DNA from: Solirubrobacteraceae bacterium
GTDB taxonomy: Bacteria; Actinomycetota; Thermoleophilia; Solirubrobacterales; Solirubrobacteraceae
Length of the DNA: 45,201 bases
Direction: 5' to 3'
NCBI GenBank assembly: GCA_030681525.1
Contig: JAUXSD010000247.1
Span: 1-45,201, forward strand
Both the position numbers and the translations under genes were made by a program. Shown here piece after piece: positions 14,820 to 41,336 of the stretch (positions within the stretch are counted from its first letter, which is position 1; each line of letters begins with the position of its first letter). The notes under the pieces were generated by a model. That model was given only the letters and a program-made list of their open reading frames with translations, ran no database searches and was not told the DNA's origin.

Positions 14820-16922
14820 ATGCCCGCAGAACTCACGTGGGGCCGGCGCCTGCTCATGTGCCCGCCCGCGCACTTCGACGTCTCGTACGCGATCAACCCG
14901 TGGATGGACCTCGCCGTCCCGGTCGATCGCGCGCGCGCCCAGCACCAGTGGGACGCGCTCGTCCAGACGCTCACCGAGGCCGGCGCGCAGGTCGAGGTCC
15001 TCGCCCCGCAGGCCGGCCTGCCCGACCTTGTCTTCACCGCCAACCTCGGCCTCGTCGACGGCGACACGTTCATCCCCGCGCGCATGCGCCACCCCGAGCG
15101 GCGCGCGGAGCCCGCCCTCGCCGAGCGCTGGTTCGCCCAGCACGGCTACGCCATCCGCCCCCTCGGCGACGACGTCGTGCAGGAGGGCGCCGGCGACGCG
15201 CTGCCCTTCGAGGGCACGCTGATCGGCGCCTACCGCACGCGTTCCTCGGCCTCCTCGTACGTCGACCTCGCGCGGATCGTCGACGCCCCGATCCTGCCGG
15301 TCGAGCTCGCCGACGATCGCTTCTACCACCTCGATATCGCGTTCTGCCCGCTCGACTCGCGCAGCGCGCTCGTCGCGTTCGACAAGTTCGACGAGGACAG
15401 CCGGCGGCTGCTGACCGCGCTTGTGCCCGACCCGATCGCGCTCACCCCCGAGGAGGTCGAGGCGTTCAGCGCCAACGCCGTCGTCGTCGGTCGCACGATC
15501 GTCATGGCGTCGTGCTCCCCGCGCCTGGCGGCGGAGCTGCGCACCCGCGGCTTCGATCCGGTCGTCGTCGACGTCTCGGAGTTCCTCAAGGCGGGCGGCG
15601 GGCCGCGCTGCCTGACGCTGGCCCTCGACGTGCGGCTCGCGGCGCAGGACACCGGCGCGCTGGCCGACCGCTACACGGCGCACAACTACCACCCGCTGGC
15701 CGTCACGATCACGCACGCCGAGGGCGTCTGGGTGCACGACGACCGCGGCCGGCGCCACCTCGACGCGCTGTCGGGCTACAGCGCGCTGAACTTCGGCCAC
15801 CGCCACCCGCGCCTCGTCGCCGCCGCGCACGAGCAGCTCGACCGCGTGACGCTGACGAGCCGCGCGTTCGCCAACGACCAGCTCGGGCCGTGGGCGCGCG
15901 ACCTCGCCGCGCTGACCGGCAAGGACCGGGTCCTGCCGATGAACACCGGGGCAGAGGCCGTCGAGACGGCGATCAAGACCGTGCGCAAGTGGGGCCACGA
16001 GGTCAAGGGCGTCGCGCCGGACCGCGGGACGATCATCGTCTGCGAGGGCAACTTCCACGGCCGCACGACGACGATCGTCTCCTTCTCCGACGACCCGCTC
16101 GCGCGCGCCGGCTTCGGCCCGTTCACGCCCGGCTTCGTCCGCGTGCCGTTCGGTGACGAGGCCGCGCTGGAGCACGCGCTGCGCGCACACGACGACGTCA
16201 TCGGCTTCCTCGTCGAGCCGATCCAGGGCGAGGCCGGCGTGGTCATCCCGCCCGACGGCTACCTGCCGGCGGCGCGGCGGCTGTGCAGCGAGCACGGCGT
16301 GCTGCTCGTCGCCGACGAGGTCCAGTCGGGGATGGGCCGCACGGGACGGACGCTGGCCTGTGAGCACGAGGGCGTCGTGCCCGACCTCTACGTGCTCGGC
16401 AAGGCGCTCGGCGGCGGCATCGTCGCGCTGTCGGCGATCGCGGGCGACGACGACGTGCTCGACGTCTTCACGCCTGGATGCCACGGCTCGACGTTCGGCG
16501 GCAACCCGCTCGCGTGCGCGGTCGGCCGCGCGGTGCTCGAGTTGCTGGCCACCGGCGAGCCGCAGGCCAACGCGGCGCGCATCGGCGCGCGCCTGCGCGC
16601 GGGACTGCAGGACGCGGCGCCGCCGGCGCTGGCCGCCATCCGCTCGCGCGGGCTGTGGTTCGGGCTCGACGTCCACGAGAGCCACGGCAGCGCCCGCGCG
16701 ATCTGCGAGCGGCTGCTGGAGGTCGGCGTGCTGGCCAAGGACACGCACGAGCAGACCGTCCGGCTCGCGCCGCCGCTGACGATCACCGCCGCCGAGGCCG
16801 ACTGGCTGCTCGAGCGCCTGCTCGGGGTGCTCGCCGATGCGCATGCCGACGCCGAGGCGGCGCACGCCGACCTGCGTTTCGCCGACACTGCAGTCGTTCC
16901 CACCCCGCCGCTCGCCGCATAG
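14820..16922 (+). CDS. Bifunctional fusion: arginine dihydrolase-like domain + ornithine aminotransferase
   Basis: 700 residues from ATG 14820. Residues 1-280 are a guanidino-modifying-enzyme domain: FTANLG at 72-77, Glu122/Asp126 in QEGAGDA, His170 in YHLDIAF and the nucleophile Cys264 in GGGPRCL. The FTAN motif is that of arginine dihydrolases (arginine to ornithine, CO2 and ammonia) rather than DDAH. Residues ~285-675 are a class III aminotransferase like RocD: GFHG-type phosphate loop, DEVQSG at 499-504 and the PLP lysine Lys528 in VLGKALGGG. Together they could take arginine to glutamate-5-semialdehyde. In M. tuberculosis the same parts are separate neighbours (Rv2323c, rocD1/rocD2) beside an AsnC-type gene; here they are one chain. 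Dihydrolase versus dimethylargininase activity is inferred, not shown. Confidence 0.88.
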   Translation: MPAELTWGRRLLMCPPAHFDVSYAINPWMDLAVPVDRARAQHQWDALVQTLTEAGAQVEVLAPQAGLPDLVFTANLGLVDGDTFIPARMRHPERRAEPALAERWFAQHGYAIRPLGDDVVQEGAGDALPFEGTLIGAYRTRSSASSYVDLARIVDAPILPVELADDRFYHLDIAFCPLDSRSALVAFDKFDEDSRRLLTALVPDPIALTPEEVEAFSANAVVVGRTIVMASCSPRLAAELRTRGFDPVVVDVSEFLKAGGGPRCLTLALDVRLAAQDTGALADRYTAHNYHPLAVTITHAEGVWVHDDRGRRHLDALSGYSALNFGHRHPRLVAAAHEQLDRVTLTSRAFANDQLGPWARDLAALTGKDRVLPMNTGAEAVETAIKTVRKWGHEVKGVAPDRGTIIVCEGNFHGRTTTIVSFSDDPLARAGFGPFTPGFVRVPFGDEAALEHALRAHDDVIGFLVEPIQGEAGVVIPPDGYLPAARRLCSEHGVLLVADEVQSGMGRTGRTLACEHEGVVPDLYVLGKALGGGIVALSAIAGDDDVLDVFTPGCHGSTFGGNPLACAVGRAVLELLATGEPQANAARIGARLRAGLQDAAPPALAAIRSRGLWFGLDVHESHGSARAICERLLEVGVLAKDTHEQTVRLAPPLTITAAEADWLLERLLGVLADAHADAEAAHADLRFADTAVVPTPPLAA

Positions 16923-17365
16923 CCGACCTCGACGACATCGACCGCCGCATCATCGCCGAGCTGCTACAGGACGGCAGGCGCAGCCTGGCCGAGCTGGGCG
17001 AGCGCGTGAACCTCTCCTCGCCGGCGGTCAAGCGGCGCGTCGACCGCCTGCGCGAACGCGGTGTCATCACCGGCTTCACGGCGCTCGTCGATCCCGCGGC
17101 GCTCGGCCAGCGCACCGAGGCGTTCGTCGAGATCTTCTGCGCCGCGAACATGAGCGCGATCGCGCTGCGCGAGACGCTGGCCGGCGAGCCGGAGATCGTC
17201 GGCGCCTACACCGTCACCGGCGACGCCGACGCGCTGATCCAGGTGCGCGCGACCGACGTCGAGCACCTCGAGGCGGCGATCGAGCGGATCCGGACGAACG
17301 AGGGCATCGCGCGCACGAAGACGATCATCGTGCTCAGCCGCCTGATCTCCCGCGGCGATCCCTAG
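16919..17365 (+). CDS. Lrp/AsnC-family regulator with apparent ATA start
   Basis: About 148 residues. The N-terminal helix-turn-helix (LDDIDRRIIAELLQDGRRS, then LSSPAVKRRVDRL) and the C-terminal RAM ligand-binding domain (from about residue 65, with the GAYTVTGDADALIQV strand) are complete and typical. No ATG, GTG or TTG exists in this frame in the needed place. The only sensible first codon is ATA at 16919, which overlaps the fusion gene's TAG (ATAG) just as ATGA overlaps do elsewhere in this window. Initiation at AUA by translational coupling, or a base error, are the options. Position and family imply arginine- or ornithine-dependent control of the upstream fusion gene. Confidence 0.8.
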   Translation: MADLDDIDRRIIAELLQDGRRSLAELGERVNLSSPAVKRRVDRLRERGVITGFTALVDPAALGQRTEAFVEIFCAANMSAIALRETLAGEPEIVGAYTVTGDADALIQVRATDVEHLEAAIERIRTNEGIARTKTIIVLSRLISRGDP

Positions 17366-35334: not shown

Positions 35335-35545
35335 CGAGGACACGAACAAGCAGGCCCCGCCGCACGACAGCGAGGCGAGCGAGCCGCTGGGGCCGATGAC
35401 CCCCGACGACGAGACGGAGCTCGGCGACACGCCCGAGGCCCACGACGAGATCACGCCGCACGACCTGCCGCTCGATCACCCCGGCCGCGACGAGGCCGAA
35501 CGCCAGGCCGGCAGCGGCGAGGGCACCGTCCGCGGAAACACCTGA
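35327..35545 (+). CDS. Small acidic disordered protein
   Basis: 72 residues from ATG 35327, with 20 Asp/Glu and five His, many Pro and no hydrophobic core. Blocks such as GPMTPDDETELGDTPEAHDEITPHDLPLDHPGRDEAER look like a conserved but disordered actinobacterial protein. It may be a stress or spore-type small protein or bind metals through His/Asp; nothing decides. It overlaps the end of the fragment upstream by eight bases. Confidence 0.55.
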   Translation: MADEDTNKQAPPHDSEASEPLGPMTPDDETELGDTPEAHDEITPHDLPLDHPGRDEAERQAGSGEGTVRGNT

Positions 35546-35584
35546 GAGCGCCCTGCCGGCGCGCCGTGATGCGCGGCGCGCTGG

Positions 35585-35590
35585 CAGACT
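35585..35590 (+). promoter_or_regulatory. -10-like box CAGACT, seven bases before ATG
   Basis: The same hexamer occurs six bases before the GT2 gene (39455-39460). Leaderless-type spacing to the CHAD gene start. Confidence 0.4.
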
Positions 35591-35597
35591 GGGCGCT

Positions 35598-37145
35598 ATG
35601 GACGGCCAGCAGACGCAGCTGCAGCTGCCTGACGGCATCGACGCCGCGGGCGCGGCCGATCGGCTGGCCGCGCACGTCGCGGTCGTCACGCACCGCGCGC
35701 ACCGCGCCGACCGCACGTTCTGGGACACGTTCGACGGCCGCCTGCACGCGGCCGGCCTCGTCCTCGTCGACAACGGCAGCCGCTTCGCGCTGGTCGACGG
35801 CGCCACGTACGCCGAGCAGGCCGCCGCCGACCACGCGCGCGGGCTGCGCCGGCTCGCTGCGGTCGACCTGCCCGCCGGACCGCTGCGCGAGCGCCTGGAG
35901 CCGCTCGTCGAGATGCGCGTCCTCACGCCGGTCGTGCGCGTCCGCAGCCGGCTGCTGCCGATCAACGTGCTCGACGAGCTCGGCAAGGTCGTCGTGCGCC
36001 TGCAGGCCGAGGAGCCGACGGTCGTCGCGGGCGGCGACGCCAAGATCGCATTGCGCCCCCGCCTGAACGTCGTCGGCGTGCGGGGCTACGACACCGAGTA
36101 CGAACGGGTGCTCGCGCGGCTGACCGGCGACCTCGACCTGCAACCGGTCACCGAGCTGCTGCACGACGAGGCCGTCGCGGCGATCGGCGCGACGCCCGGC
36201 GGGACGTCCTCCAAGCTGCGCGTGACCCTGCTGCCCGACACGCGGGCCGACGCCGCCGCCGTGACGATCCTGCGCCGGCTGCTGGAGATCATCGAGGTCA
36301 ACCTGCCCGGCACGCTCGCCGGCCTCGACAGCGAGTACCTGCACGACCTGCGCGTCGCGGTGCGCCGCTCGCGGGCGCTGCAGCGCGAGCTGCGCGGCGT
36401 CTTCGCGCCCGAGCCGCTGCGGGTGTTCCGCGACGGCTTTCGCGAGCTGCAGGTCCTGACCGGGCCGACGCGCGACCTCGACGTCCAGTTGCTGGAGTTC
36501 GCGGACCTCGCCGCGACGCTCCCACCCGACGCCGCGCCGGACGTGGCGCCGCTGCGCGAGCTGCTCGAGCTGCGCCTGGCCGCCGAGCGGGCGAAGATGG
36601 TGCGCGACCTCGAGTCCGAGCGCACGCGCGCGCTGCTCGACAACTGGCGCGTCTTCCTCGACGTGCTCGTCGCCGCGCCGGAGGAGGACCGGCCCGACGC
36701 GGCGCGGCCGGTCGCCGACGTGGCGGGCGAGCGGATCGCCACGGTCTACGGGCGGATGGTGAAGATGGGCCGCGCGATCGAGCCCGACAGCCCGCACGAG
36801 GCGCTGCACGACCTGCGCAAGAAGGGCAAGGAGCTGCGCTACCTGCTCGAGTTCTTCGCCTCGCTGTATCCGCCGGAGGTCGTCAAGCCGATGGTCGCGA
36901 CGCTGAAGGCGCTGCAGGACGTGCTCGGCCGCTTCCAGGATCGCGAGGTGCAGGCCGACGCGCTGCGGGCGCTCGGAGACGAGATCGCGGCGCTGGACGG
37001 CGGGGCCGCGGCGCTCATGGCGATGGGCGTGCTGGTCCAGCGCCTCGGCGAGGAGCAGGCGCAGGCCCGCGAGCAGTTCGCCGAGCGCTTCGCGCAGTTC
37101 GCCGCCAAGCCGCAGCGCAAGCTCGTGACGAAGACCTTCGGGTGA
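35598..37145 (+). CDS. CYTH-like/CHAD-domain protein (polyphosphate binding)
   Basis: 515 residues from ATG 35598. The first ~240 residues are a degenerate CYTH-like region without the ExExK motif, so it is probably not catalytic. The CHAD domain (~250-510) is helical, with the conserved His/Arg/Lys faces LHDLRVAVRRSRAL near residue 250 and LHDLRKKGKELRYLLEFF near 395, which bind polyphosphate in known CHAD proteins (phosins). Its stop overlaps the ParA gene start (GTGA), so the two are made together. It should sit on cytoplasmic polyphosphate granules. Confidence 0.88.
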   Translation: MDGQQTQLQLPDGIDAAGAADRLAAHVAVVTHRAHRADRTFWDTFDGRLHAAGLVLVDNGSRFALVDGATYAEQAAADHARGLRRLAAVDLPAGPLRERLEPLVEMRVLTPVVRVRSRLLPINVLDELGKVVVRLQAEEPTVVAGGDAKIALRPRLNVVGVRGYDTEYERVLARLTGDLDLQPVTELLHDEAVAAIGATPGGTSSKLRVTLLPDTRADAAAVTILRRLLEIIEVNLPGTLAGLDSEYLHDLRVAVRRSRALQRELRGVFAPEPLRVFRDGFRELQVLTGPTRDLDVQLLEFADLAATLPPDAAPDVAPLRELLELRLAAERAKMVRDLESERTRALLDNWRVFLDVLVAAPEEDRPDAARPVADVAGERIATVYGRMVKMGRAIEPDSPHEALHDLRKKGKELRYLLEFFASLYPPEVVKPMVATLKALQDVLGRFQDREVQADALRALGDEIAALDGGAAALMAMGVLVQRLGEEQAQAREQFAERFAQFAAKPQRKLVTKTFG

Positions 37146-37897
37146 CCATGGCCACCACCGTCGCGCTCTACAACATCAAGGGAGGCGTCGGCAAGACCTC
37201 GGCTGCGGTGAACCTCGCGTGGGCCGCCGCCGACGAGGGCGCGCGCGTGCTGCTGTGGGACCTCGACCCGCAGGGCGCGGCCAGCTACCTGCTGCGCATC
37301 CGGCCGAAGGTGCGCGGCGGCGGCGCCAAGCTCGTGCGCGGCAAGAGCGATCCGGCCGCGCTGCTGAAGGGCTCCGACCACCCGCGCCTGGACCTGCTGC
37401 CGGCCGACTTCTCCTACCGCAACCTGGACCTCGCGCTCGACGCGACGAAGCGCCCGACGCAGGGCCTGGCCCGGGTCCTCGCGCCGCTCGCCGGCGACTA
37501 CGACTACGTCTTCCTCGACTGCGCGCCGGCGATCTCGCTGGCCTCCGAGAGCGTCTTCGCCGCGGCCGACGTGCTGCTCGTGCCGCTCATCCCGACGCCG
37601 CTGTCGCTGCGCACCTACGACCAGCTGCGCGGCTTCGTCAGCACCGAGGTGGCCAAGCCGCGGCCGCGGATCCTCGCGTTTCTCTCGATGACCGACGGGC
37701 GCAAGGCCCTGCATCGCAGCGTCGCCGAGGAGCTGGCCGGCGACGCCGGCGTGCTCGCCTCGGCGATCCCGGCGGCGAGCGATGTCGAGCGGATGGGCTT
37801 GCAGCGCCGCGCGCTGGCGCAGTTCGCCCCCCACGGCCGCGCGGCGCGCGCATACGGCGCGCTGTGGACGGAGCTGCGCGGCCGGCTGGCCGACTAG
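37142..37897 (+). CDS. ParA-family ATPase
   Basis: 251 residues from GTG 37142, overlapping the CHAD gene stop; ATG 37148 is an alternative two codons later. The deviant Walker A motif KGGVGKTS at residues 14-21, Walker A' WDLDPQG near 39 and Walker B YVFLDCAP near 122 are complete. The protein has no helix-turn-helix and no ParB gene follows, so it is not an ordinary chromosome-partition ParA; orphan ParA proteins position cargos such as carboxysomes or granules on the nucleoid. Coupling to a CHAD protein suggests the cargo is polyphosphate granules. That is inference. Confidence 0.88.
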   Translation: MTMATTVALYNIKGGVGKTSAAVNLAWAAADEGARVLLWDLDPQGAASYLLRIRPKVRGGGAKLVRGKSDPAALLKGSDHPRLDLLPADFSYRNLDLALDATKRPTQGLARVLAPLAGDYDYVFLDCAPAISLASESVFAAADVLLVPLIPTPLSLRTYDQLRGFVSTEVAKPRPRILAFLSMTDGRKALHRSVAEELAGDAGVLASAIPAASDVERMGLQRRALAQFAPHGRAARAYGALWTELRGRLAD

Positions 37898-38507
37898 GAC
37901 GGCGGCAGCGCCTGCGCGAGCAGCCGCCGGATCGCGGCACGGCCCTGCGCGAACGCCGCCGGGTCGCGGCTGATGCGGTAGCGGTGGTTGGCGGCGGTCA
38001 GCAGCGCGTGCAGCTCGAAGGCGAGCTGGGCGGGATCGGCGCCGTCGGGGAGCGCGTCGCGCAGCGCCCGCTCGAGCGCGCCGATCTGGCGCTCGATGGC
38101 GGTGGCGAGCGCGTCGTGCACCGGTCCCTCGCGGTTGGCGAACTCCATCCCCGCGGTGAGGAAGGGGCAGCCGCCGGGGAAGACCTCGCGCTCGTAGTAG
38201 GAGATCCAACGCTCGAGCAACGGCTCGATGCCGTCGTCGCCCGGTGCGAGGACGTGCTCCTCGAAGATCGTCCAGGCGCAGTCGATCGTCGCGAGCTGGA
38301 GGTCCTGCTTCGATGTGAAGTACGCGTACAGGCCGCTCTTGCTCATCCCCATCGCGCGGCGAGGCGACCGATCGAGACCTGTTCGAGACCATCGATCGAG
38401 GCCAGCTCGCCCGCGCGCCGGAGGATCTGGCCGCGCAGGCGCGGGCCGCGGACGCGCGGCAGCCGCAGCTGGGGCAGAGGCGGGATCTGTGGTTCGCCGA
38501 CCACGCG
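37894..38507 (-). pseudogene. TetR-family regulator split by a frameshift in its DNA-binding domain
   Basis: From GTG 38507 (minus) the frame reads a good TetR N-terminus: GPRLRGQILRRAGELASIDG then EQVSIGRLAA, and stops at TGA just after. The next frame continues exactly as the recognition helix and body of the same protein: MGMSKSGLYAYFTSKQDL, then FPGGCPFLTAGMEF and a TetR C-terminal core, to TAG at 37894. One missing base near 38353-38356 (between GCG and ATGGGG) accounts for it. Restored, it would be ~203 residues of normal length. It is divergent from the sigma factor gene with an operator-like palindrome between. Either a recent pseudogene or a sequence error. Confidence 0.8.
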
Positions 38508-38546
38508 CCCAGCGTATTCCCAGAGGCAACGAAGCGCTAATGATTT

Positions 38547-38562
38547 GCACGAACGGTCGTGC
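38547..38562. promoter_or_regulatory. TetR-type operator GCACGA-ACGG-TCGTGC
   Basis: A perfect inverted repeat 40 bases upstream of the TetR gene start and directly abutting a -10-like TAACGT (38563-38568) of the sigma gene. The ACGA/TCGT core is common in TetR-family operators. It could let the regulator control both itself and the sigma gene. Confidence 0.6.
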
Positions 38563-38568
38563 TAACGT
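38563..38568 (+). promoter_or_regulatory. -10 box TAACGT, eight bases before GTG
   Basis: TANNNT hexamer upstream of the sigma factor GTG at 38577, touching the palindrome at 38547-38562. No ribosome binding site in between. Confidence 0.4.
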
Positions 38569-38576
38569 CGGGTTCG

Positions 38577-39431
38577 GTGAAGGGAGGCCAACAGCCGCTC
38601 GGCCAGGGCGCGACCGATGCGCTCGACCTGTTTCTGCGCGACATCCGCGGGATCCGGCTGCTGCGGCCCGACGAGGAGATCATGCTCGCGCATCGCATCG
38701 CTCGTGGCGACCTGCGGGCGAAGGAGCGCATGGTGGAGGCCAACCTGCGCCTCGTCGTCTCGATCGCCAAGCGCTACCGCGGGCAGGGGCTGCCGTTCCT
38801 CGACCTCATCCAGGAGGGCACGCTCGGGCTGATCCGCGCCGTCGAGAAGTTCGATCCTGCGAAGGGCTTTCGCTTCTCGACCTACGCCACGTGGTGGATC
38901 CGCCAGGCCATCGCCCGCGCGCTCGCCGACAAGGCGCGCACGATCCGGATCCCGGTCAACCTCAACGAGCAGCTGAAGGCCGTCCAGGCCGCCGAGCGGT
39001 ACCTGTCCGGCGCGCTCGGGCGCGATCCGACGGTCGAGGAGATCGCCACGGAGGCGCGCCTGCCGACGCCGCACGTCATGGCGCTGCGCGCCTGGGCCCA
39101 GGCGCCGGTGTCGCTCGAGCAGCCCGTCGGCGACGACGGCGGCTCGGTGCTCGGCGAGTTCATCGCCGACGACCACACCCCGTCGGCGTTCGAGGCCGCT
39201 TCGGCCGGTTTCTACGTCGACGCCGTGCGCCGCATGCTCGACACGCTCAACGAGCGCGAGCGGCGCGTGCTCGAGTTGCGCTACGGCCTGTGCGGCGAGG
39301 AGCCCTGCACGGCGACCGAGGTGTCGCGCCGCTTCAACGTCTCGCGCGAGCGCATCCGCCAGATCGAGTCGCGCTCGCTGTCAAAGCTCGAGCGGCTGGC
39401 GGCGGACGACACGCTGCGCGAGCTGCTGTAG
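38577..39431 (+). CDS. Sigma-70 family RNA polymerase sigma factor, primary-like (group 2)
   Basis: 284 residues from GTG 38577; GTG 38559 would add six. Regions 1.2 to 4.2 are present: [16 protein letters not shown] and [27 protein letters not shown] (1.2-2.1), the -10 reading part [19 protein letters not shown] (2.3-2.4), region 3 with [12 protein letters not shown], and the -35 reading helix [19 protein letters not shown] (4.2). Region 1.1 is absent, so it is a non-essential RpoD paralogue rather than the housekeeping factor. Regulated possibly by the divergent TetR gene through the shared operator. The carotenoid genes nearby may belong to its regulon, which is speculative. Confidence 0.9.
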
Positions 39432-39454
39432 CGGCGCACGGTCCGCGCGAGCGG

Positions 39455-39460
39455 CAGACT
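39455..39460 (+). promoter_or_regulatory. -10-like box CAGACT, six bases before ATC start
   Basis: Same hexamer and nearly the same distance as in front of the CHAD gene. It positions transcription start on the ATC at 39467, in frame with the GT2 protein. Confidence 0.45.
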
Positions 39461-39466
39461 GCGGCG

Positions 39467-40600
39467 ATCGCCGCTTTCCGCCAGACCCGCCGGCGCGCGT
39501 TCCTCGCCGCGCAGTCCGCCGCCGCCGCGGTCCTCTCCGCCCGCTTCGCCCGCGGCCGCCGGCGCCGTGCGCCGCTGGCCGGCGGTGCCCCCGCGCCGGC
39601 GGAGCCGGTCTCGATCGTCATCCCCGCGCGTGACGAGGCGGCGCGGCTCGGTCCGTGCCTGGAGGGGCTGCGGGACGTCGCGGCCGAGGTCCTCGTCGTC
39701 GACGACCGGTCGACCGACGGAACCGCCGAGCTCGCCCGCGCCCACGGCGCCCGGATTATCGAGGGGGCCGAGCTGCCGGCCGGCTGGATCGGCAAGTCGT
39801 GGGCGATGCAGCAGGGCCTGGAGGCGGCGACGGGCGACTGGGTGATCTTCCTCGACGCCGACACGCGGCCGCGGCCAGGGCTGGTCGCGGCGCTCGTCGA
39901 GGCGGCCGGCCCGTACGACCTGCTCAGCGCCGCCCCGCGCTTCGTCTGCGAGAGCGCCGCCGAGCGGATGCTGCATCCGGCGATGGCGGCGACGCTGCCC
40001 TACCGGCTCGGTCCGCTTGACATCGAGGGCTGGCAGCCCAGCCCGCGGCGCGCGCTGGCCAACGGGCAGTGCGTCGTCGTCCGCCGCGAGCCGTTTCTCG
40101 CGTCCGGCGGCTGGGAGCGGGTGGCCGGCAACCTCTCCGAGGACGTCGCGCTGGCCCGCTCGCTGCGAGCGGACGGCGCCCGGGTCGGCTTCGCCGACGC
40201 CGCCGACCTGCTCGAGGTGCGCATGTACGCCTCCGCGCGCGAGACCTGGACGGGCTGGGGGCGCTCGCTGATGGGGTCGGGCGCGACGCCTCCGCTGCAG
40301 CAGGCCGGCGACGTCGCGCTGCTGTGGCTGACGCTGGCCCTGCCCCTGCCGCGCCTCGCCAGCCGGCGCGGGACGCCGCTGGACGCGCTCCTCGTAGCCG
40401 TCCGGCTGGCGATCCACGTCGCTCTGGCGCGCGGGTACGCCAAGCCGCGCGGCCTGCCGTACGCGCTCGCGCCGCTCGCCGACCTGCCGGTCACGGCGTG
40501 GCTGACGTGGAGCGCGCTGCGCCCGTCGCGGCGCTGGCGCGGACGGACCTACCACGCGGCGGCGGCGCGGGGGGCCGGCGCAGCCGCGGCGGGCTCGTAG
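39467..40600 (+). CDS. Family 2 glycosyltransferase, carotenoid-cluster type, apparent ATC start
   Basis: About 377 residues. The GT2 domain starts with [20 protein letters not shown], has [20 protein letters not shown] (DxD) and [13 protein letters not shown], followed by two C-terminal membrane segments (~285-345). The plan resembles glycosyltransferases that decorate carotenoids (CruC/CrtQ types). The frame has no ATG, GTG or TTG between the sigma gene and residue ~113. The sequence upstream of the GT domain ([20 protein letters not shown]) looks coding, so ATC 39467, six bases after a -10 box, is the best start; CTG 39575 is the alternative. It probably glycosylates the hydroxyl made by the CruF-type hydratase. 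Confidence 0.75.
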
Positions 40601-40619: not shown

Positions 40620-40625
40620 CATACT
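40620..40625 (+). promoter_or_regulatory. -10-like box CATACT, six bases before ATG
   Basis: Leaderless-type spacing to the CrtA-like gene at 40632. No ribosome binding site. Confidence 0.4.
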
Positions 40626-40631
40626 GGACCG

Positions 40632-41336
40632 ATGCTCGCCTCGTTTCACCTCATCCGCTACCCGCGCGCCACCGCGCCGCAGGGCATGTCGCGGATGGGC
40701 CTGGACCGGCCGCTGCTGCGCGCGACCGCCGGGCTGCGGTTCTGGAAGCTGCTGGGCACCGGCCGCGGCGAGACGATGACCCTGTCGGCCGACCTGCGCC
40801 GCTGGGCGCTGTTCGCCGTCTGGGAGCAGGAGGGCGCGCTCGACGCCTTCCTGGCGCGGTCGGCGGTCGTCGCCGGTTGGTACGGGCGCGGCGCGGAGGT
40901 GTACGACGTGCGCCTGACGCCGTTGCGCGTACGCGGCGCGTGGAGCGGCGACGCGCTGTTCGCGGGCGCGGGCGCGGTCGTGCCGCCCGGGCCCGGCGAC
41001 CCGGTCGCGATCCTCACCCGGGCGTCGGTCCGCCCGTCCAAGCTCGTCGCGTTCTCGCGTGCGATCGCGGCGCCGGCCGCCGACCTGCACGACCGGCCCG
41101 GGCTGCTGGCGTCGGTCGGCATCGGGGAGTGGCCGGTGGCGCGGCAGGCCACGTTCTCGCTGTGGGAGTCGCTCGCCGCCGTGCAGGACTACGCCTACGG
41201 CCGACCCGACCACCGCGACGTCGTGCGGCGCACCCGCGCCGAGCGCTGGTACTCGGAGGAGCTCTTCGCCCGCTTCGCGCCGTACGGGAGCAGCGGGACG
41301 TGGGGCGGGGTGGACCCGCTGCATTCGCTTCGATGA
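40632..41336 (+). CDS. CrtA-like (spheroidene monooxygenase family) protein
   Basis: 234 residues from ATG 40632. The chain matches the spheroidene monooxygenase family as found in actinobacteria: FHLIRYPR at the start, [31 protein letters not shown] (~36-66), a middle VRGAWSG and [13 protein letters not shown], and the C-terminal block [41 protein letters not shown]. The fold is a dimeric alpha-beta barrel repeated twice. CrtA adds keto groups at C2 of acyclic carotenoids. Its position in an acyclic carotenoid cluster, 31 bases after the GT2 gene, supports the assignment; activity is untested. Confidence 0.75.

Follow-up and report, generated by a model that had tools for sequence, protein, structure and literature searches.

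How does translation begin in a gene whose reading frame offers no usual start codon where its coding region appears to open? A family-2 glycosyltransferase gene raises this question in a G+C-rich Solirubrobacteraceae bacterium (GenBank assembly GCA_030681525.1; 352 contigs, 5.35% contamination). The stretch analyzed here, which we call the window, comprises 45,201 nucleotides of one contig (JAUXSD010000247.1). The original prediction was that the gene starts at an ATC codon placed exactly at a leaderless promoter. A leaderless AUC start at position 39467 is the best-supported reading of this locus, to which we assign a probability of roughly 0.6. The following features of the window bear on it.

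38559 to 39431, + strand: RpoD-like sigma factor gene with an intact 3' end.
39290 to 39292, + strand: in-frame GTG within the sigma gene, 59 codons upstream of the ATC, a rival canonical start.
39455 to 39460, + strand: CAGACT, the proposed -10 box of a leaderless promoter.
39467 to 39469, + strand: proposed AUC start codon, in frame, the sole codon nearby that is one base off ATG.
39467 to 40600, + strand: CruG-like family-2 glycosyltransferase gene as read from ATC 39467 (377 codons, stop TAG).
40632 to 41336, + strand: CrtA-like gene with its own box, CATACT (40620 to 40625), N6 and ATG.

We examined where coding in this frame begins. The frame extends uninterrupted from 38201 to its stop at 40600, and the ATC at 39467 lies within it, as predicted. 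The accompanying claim that no usual start occurs until about residue 113 holds downstream, where the next in-frame candidate is ATG 39806 (residue 114 counted from the ATC), but it passes over the upstream GTG at 39290; ATG, GTG and TTG are absent from the frame between 39293 and 39805. From the sigma stop codon (39429 to 39431) to a CTG at 39575, the sole codon one base from ATG is ATC 39467, which follows the sigma stop after 35 bases without overlap. The suggestion that the N-terminal region looks coding is borne out twice. Third-position G+C of the glycosyltransferase frame, measured in 120-base windows, rises from 0.55 (start 39350) to 0.93 (start 39440), and upstream of about 39410 the codon bias sits in the sigma frame instead. 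In addition, relatives align to the N-terminal segment from about residue 7 to 10 onward. Codon bias and homology together thus place the start near 39460 to 39500, where ATC 39467 is the only near-cognate codon. We rejected a frameshift at the 5' end as a simple remedy; ATG, GTG and TTG are absent from 39322 to 39566 in every frame of the + strand, and the sigma factor has a C-terminus like that found in the majority of 19 further sigma genes.

The encoded protein matches Pfam Glycos_transf_2 (PF00535) at 83.1 bits, against a gathering cutoff of 23.3, over residues 61 to 166 of a 389-residue query. Its best-scoring specific families are the 2'-O-glycosyltransferase CruG (NCBIfam NF045692, 272.7 bits) and HpnB (TIGR03469, 119 bits), both below their cutoffs of 600 (curated) and 379.25. 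The gene adjoins the CrtA-like gene (NF045923, 155 bits, under the cutoff of 300) and genes that we take to be CrtI- and CruF-like. Matches to the glycosyltransferase at E ≤ 1e-40 occur in 20 of 146 family genomes, the window's own included, with more distant actinobacterial matches besides. We compared the 5' ends of 23 orthologous loci with that of the window. In 18 of them at least one usual start, and often several, lies 9 to 26 codons before a conserved R[LF]xRG motif, which the ATC of the window precedes by 25 codons. Among the exceptions, L137 has a TTG 28 codons and a GTG 3 codons ahead of the motif, and four loci of one genus (L144, L147, L148 and L149) have no usual start within 50 codons of it except a GTG 3 to 4 codons ahead. 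At the stop of the preceding gene, these four show CTAG, CTGA or TTAG. The ortholog closest by identity (71%, in G157) is preceded by GAGACT-N6-GTG and the best-scoring one (68%, in G153) by GATCAT-N7-GTG. Four loci from four genomes (L137, L138, L140 and L141) share the stretch TTGGCTGACC upstream of the glycosyltransferase; it is partly palindromic in some and is perhaps an operator or promoter.

Leaderless genes of Mycobacterium tuberculosis have a -10 box shortly upstream of the start codon. We measured the spacing of such boxes in the genome of the window. In 364.7 kb of it, TANNNT stands before ATG 16 times at a spacing of six bases and 17 times at seven, against 1.7 expected at each. 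CANNNT precedes ATG codons resembling a coding onset at these spacings 16 times, against 3.0 for control spacings. The exact hexamer CAGACT, whose first base is C, not T, occurs 21 times in 365 kb and has an ATG six or seven bases on in 5 cases (about 0.2 expected per spacing). The box type found in G157, GANNNT, is enriched before GTG (8 versus 3.3) but not before ATG (6 versus 4.3). Leaderless starts are thus common in this genome, and CAGACT is among the boxes that they use. By comparison, GGAGG is hardly enriched before ATG in a 365-kb sample, with 39 occurrences against 34.7 expected, and 136 against 111 for looser motifs. We rejected a Shine-Dalgarno start for the glycosyltransferase, no such motif being seen before its ATC. 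No -35-like element was seen by eye upstream of the CAGACT box.

The proposed promoter was likened in the original prediction to that of a CHAD gene in the window.

35585 to 35600, + strand: CHAD gene box CAGACT (35585 to 35590), N7 and ATG 35598.

The distance of six bases from CAGACT to ATC 39467 is as described, and the box is the one used by the CHAD gene; the spacing, said to be identical as well, is seven bases there and six at the glycosyltransferase. This slip and the overlooked upstream GTG weaken the wording of the prediction and leave its core standing. Among 200,000 random 22-codon stretches from sampled contigs of the same genome, 1,224 (0.6%) contain an ATH codon six or seven bases behind a [T/C]ANNNT box. 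The glycosyltransferase has a candidate -10 box at the distance that is enriched before ATG and GTG in the sampled part of this genome, and its first codon would be ATC instead of AUG or GUG. It would therefore work like a leaderless gene, as a variant and not as a standard member of the class.

General use of ATC starts is unsupported in this genome. Boxes are not enriched before onset-like ATC codons in the 364.7-kb sample (CANNNT, 4 versus 4.0 for the control; TANNNT, 3 versus 1.3), so an ATC start is no general habit. TANNNT-N6-ATC occurs four times in 764.7 kb; in three of these a usual start is the very next codon, and the remaining case is purH. We also searched for start-less onsets, defined by the absence of a usual start from 30 codons before to 25 codons after and by a position behind a [T/C]ANNNT box at spacings of 3 to 10 bases. 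The codon is ATC in two of the 36 such onsets in 764.7 kb, both at a spacing of six, and these two are the glycosyltransferase and purH. The same search at spacings of 3 to 10 found no start-less ATC in 400 kb of G001, a genome of the same genus (47 hits), nor in 400 kb of G014 (13 hits).

The strongest case for AUC starts is the purine-synthesis gene purH, for which we collected the 5' ends.

L331 to L337, L342, L346, L357, L396, L403, L410, L421, L425, L426, L429 and L430: purH 5' ends with the box-N6/7-ATC arrangement.

In the genome of the window, purH reads TATCCT-N6-ATC, and the 64 codons that follow are free of usual starts. All seven genomes of the genus carry TATNCT-N6/7-ATC at this place. 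Across the family, we examined 69 of 134 genomes with a match, leaving out a second copy in G008 and locus L348, whose match starts within the gene. TANNNT-N6/7-ATC was present in 18 of the 69, from seven genera, comprising the seven genomes of the genus and G009, G012, G019, G031, G033, G068, G079, G081, G082, G083 and G122. The others divide into 28 with an ATG or GTG 6 to 8 bases behind a TANNNT box and 23 with neither. The layout was absent from 23 purH loci of three sister families (L451, which begins inside the gene, was left out). In five of the seven genomes of the genus (G000, the window's own, with G001, G002, G003 and G005), the next in-frame usual codon comes 34 to 77 codons after the ATC; G003 and G005 have an in-frame GTG 31 to 33 codons upstream. 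Another usual codon lies near the ATC in 13 of the 18 loci, mostly a GTG 3 to 5 codons before the sequence RALLSV, so a leadered start is possible in those; one of the 13 is G006, in which the sole ATG ahead overlaps the box itself. In the aligned DNA of the five genomes, 403 of 904 positions (45%) differ in the 100 bases upstream of the ATC. From the ATC to the sequence RRALLS, by comparison, 30, 40 and 57 of 210 positions (14, 19 and 27%) differ at codon positions 1, 2 and 3, respectively. Judged by these alignments, coding-like conservation begins at the ATC.

ATH codons also appear at likely starts of a few other genes. The first of the two listed here bears on the companion claim of a second non-canonical start in the window.

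16919 to 17365, + strand: Lrp/AsnC regulator read from ATA 16919, likely the ATA case of the original prediction; it has no box and overlaps the preceding stop.
L170, 8616 to 9110, - strand: STAS-domain gene with a conserved ATC (also L224 and L230).

The Lrp/AsnC claim gains some support. Orthologs in G001 and G003 (L194 and L195) lack a nearby usual start and do have an ATA, behind CATCCT-N7 as read by eye, but it lies three codons further in than the one proposed in the window; at the codon of this more internal ATA, 15 of 27 loci outside the genus have ATG. In the STAS gene, ATC occupies one position in three loci of two genomes (one in G000 and two in G002). This ATC comes after a stretch resembling GGAGG or GAGG and lacks a usual start ahead of it; a paralog in G000 has GTG there. 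A conserved ATH codon at a homologous start, with no usual start, is found for purH and this STAS gene. For glmM, ATC was seen in one of 30 loci (G014, L311, position 7176; ATC TCC CGG AAG), and in the other 29 a usual start lies no more than two codons from that place; G014 is a single-contig genome. A survey of coding onsets flagged 10 of 634 ORFs in the genome of the window, 12 of 331 in G001 and 8 of 348 in G014, but several of these seem spurious, being long open frames or having an ATG slightly beyond the limits, so the figures are not counts of non-canonical starts. In a preliminary pass, 8 of 332 ORFs were flagged, four of which lack a Pfam match and one of which has its domain far inside.

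Taken together, these comparisons suggest that AUC is probably a real, if rare, leaderless start in this lineage. We also consider it reasonably probable that the lineage translates leaderless mRNAs beginning with 5'-AUC (perhaps also 5'-AUA) and keeps them by selection, with purH as the conserved case in seven genera and the glycosyltransferase as a recent, independent one. Position 39467 is best read as the second AUC case beside purH, a link made by analogy. The box, its spacing and the purH parallel lend the original prediction partial support; for the glycosyltransferase itself, we infer the leaderless start from these.

The surroundings of the gene supply the alternative that survives best. 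A block at 35354 to 39434 is syntenic with the same-genus genome G005 at 81% identity. The DNA similarity breaks off at 39434, shortly after the sigma stop, and carotenoid genes follow directly 3' of the sigma gene. The carotenoid cluster looks inserted or swapped at this synteny break (39431 to 39467 of the window). None of the 23 relatives' loci has this sigma gene running into the glycosyltransferase, although L146 contains a sigma gene of 29% identity pointing away, and no second genome with this junction or ATC site was found among the genomes searched. The glycosyltransferase is 65 to 71% identical to those of three of the four matching g19 genomes (52% to that of G154, a partial match) and 60% identical to that of G006, which belongs to the same genus and has an ATG in a different context. 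The closer relationship to the three g19 genomes suggests transfer or replacement. With its 5' end at a synteny break, the gene could have lost its original start. Under this alternative, the original start disappeared in the rearrangement that brought the carotenoid cluster behind the sigma gene, proper translation of the glycosyltransferase has ceased, and the CrtA-like gene uses its own leaderless ATG. The end of similarity at 39434, the singular gene order and the CATACT-N6-ATG of the CrtA-like gene would all fit, and passages of one report describe an ATG-to-ATC start change after an insertion in Neisseria, with unclear effect (PMC10210955). On the other hand, the protein is undecayed, with two singleton deviations at otherwise invariant columns compared to zero to three in 20 orthologs (L145, L149 and L150, incomplete or more distant, were left out of this count), and chance alone would put a box at the right distance from the only near-cognate codon in about 0.6% of cases. 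We regard the loss of a functional start as unlikely.

Alternatively, the true codon at 39467 could be a usual one, the assembled base being an error or a strain variant. The fragmentation and contamination of the assembly and the rarity of ATC starts elsewhere in this genome are consistent with such an error. However, in each of the seven genomes of the genus purH shows this layout with its ATC, and such a codon can thus be explained without assuming an error. The conservation of this arrangement at an unrelated gene indicates that the ATC at 39467 is probably real and not a sequencing slip, and we consider a wrong base improbable.

Two further possibilities appear very unlikely. Translation could be coupled to the end of the sigma gene and begin at a different non-standard codon in the interval 39431 to 39500. 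A precedent might be seen in L144, L147, L148 and L149 (the last two alike, the upstream gene being common to all four), where a usual start is missing from the expected position and the frame runs over the preceding stop, but the GTG shortly before R[LF]xRG may serve in those loci; the window has no such GTG, and it has the 35-base gap instead of an overlap. Translation from GTG 39290, the nearest usual in-frame codon upstream in an open frame, would add 59 codons in which third-position G+C is about 0.5 and codon bias belongs to the sigma frame, would share 142 bases with the sigma gene, and would begin 84 codons before the conserved motif, far outside the 9 to 26 seen in the 18 orthologous loci.

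Returning to a leaderless AUC start as the preferred reading, we propose the following mechanism. The carotenoid cluster would have come to lie directly behind the sigma gene, giving the present layout. RNA polymerase would recognize the CAGACT box and begin transcription at the A of ATC 39467, yielding a message with a 5'-AUC end at which the ribosome would start, most likely with the ordinary fMet initiator tRNA and with tolerance of a third-base C:C mismatch between the AUC codon and the CAU anticodon. As a check for altered translation machinery, which we rejected, a search of this genome gave 38 tRNA matches, and ARAGORN, run on 31 loci (30 tRNA loci and L155, with seven of the 38 left out), returned three CAT anticodons and one GAT, with no odd anticodon noticed among them. 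An AUC start would be expected to be weak, which may keep glycosyltransferase expression low.

If this reading is correct, it would run counter to the notion that leaderless messages must open with AUG (or GUG). Leaderless mRNAs appear to require AUG according to passages of one study (PMC5622118). In M. tuberculosis, the relevant passages report that ATC is not enriched at Ribo-RET starts and also that AUC, AUU and AUA serve as starts in rare instances (PMC9094748). Our literature search, mainly of freely accessible texts, met no description of a bacterial leaderless AUC start, and the pairing of "leaderless mRNA" with "AUC start codon" returned no paper. The conserved purH AUC and the pigment-gene case would show that the ribosome can accept 5'-AUC and would offer two reporters for asking how. 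There may be consequences for annotation as well, since automatic pipelines may truncate or mis-start such genes. The glycosyltransferase could be cut at ATG 39806, which would cost it 113 residues, among them the first part of its glycosyltransferase domain.

Three known systems invite comparison. The natural start of infC, which encodes IF3, is AUU, also an ATH codon; it lowers expression, and infC regulates itself through that codon. By contrast, the four infC loci read in this genus (of six) probably start with GTG or ATG. In an E. coli-type in vitro system, IF3 disfavors weak third-base pairs, although the AUC/CAU pair does not figure in the relevant passages of that report (PMC10158994). 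For the ribosomal protein L12ae gene of the archaeon Staphylothermus marinus, an ATC start was inferred from alignment where no valid start exists, much as for the glycosyltransferase; that case differs in being one gene in one archaeal genome, and the passage describing it is silent on a leaderless box or conservation (PMC2678158). Actinobacterial leaderless AUG and GUG genes, those of M. tuberculosis for instance, share with the proposed glycosyltransferase start a -10 box a short way upstream and the absence of a Shine-Dalgarno motif. In M. tuberculosis, leaderless transcripts were picked by a 5' RUG, according to the passages concerned (PMC9094748), whereas the glycosyltransferase message would begin with AUC.
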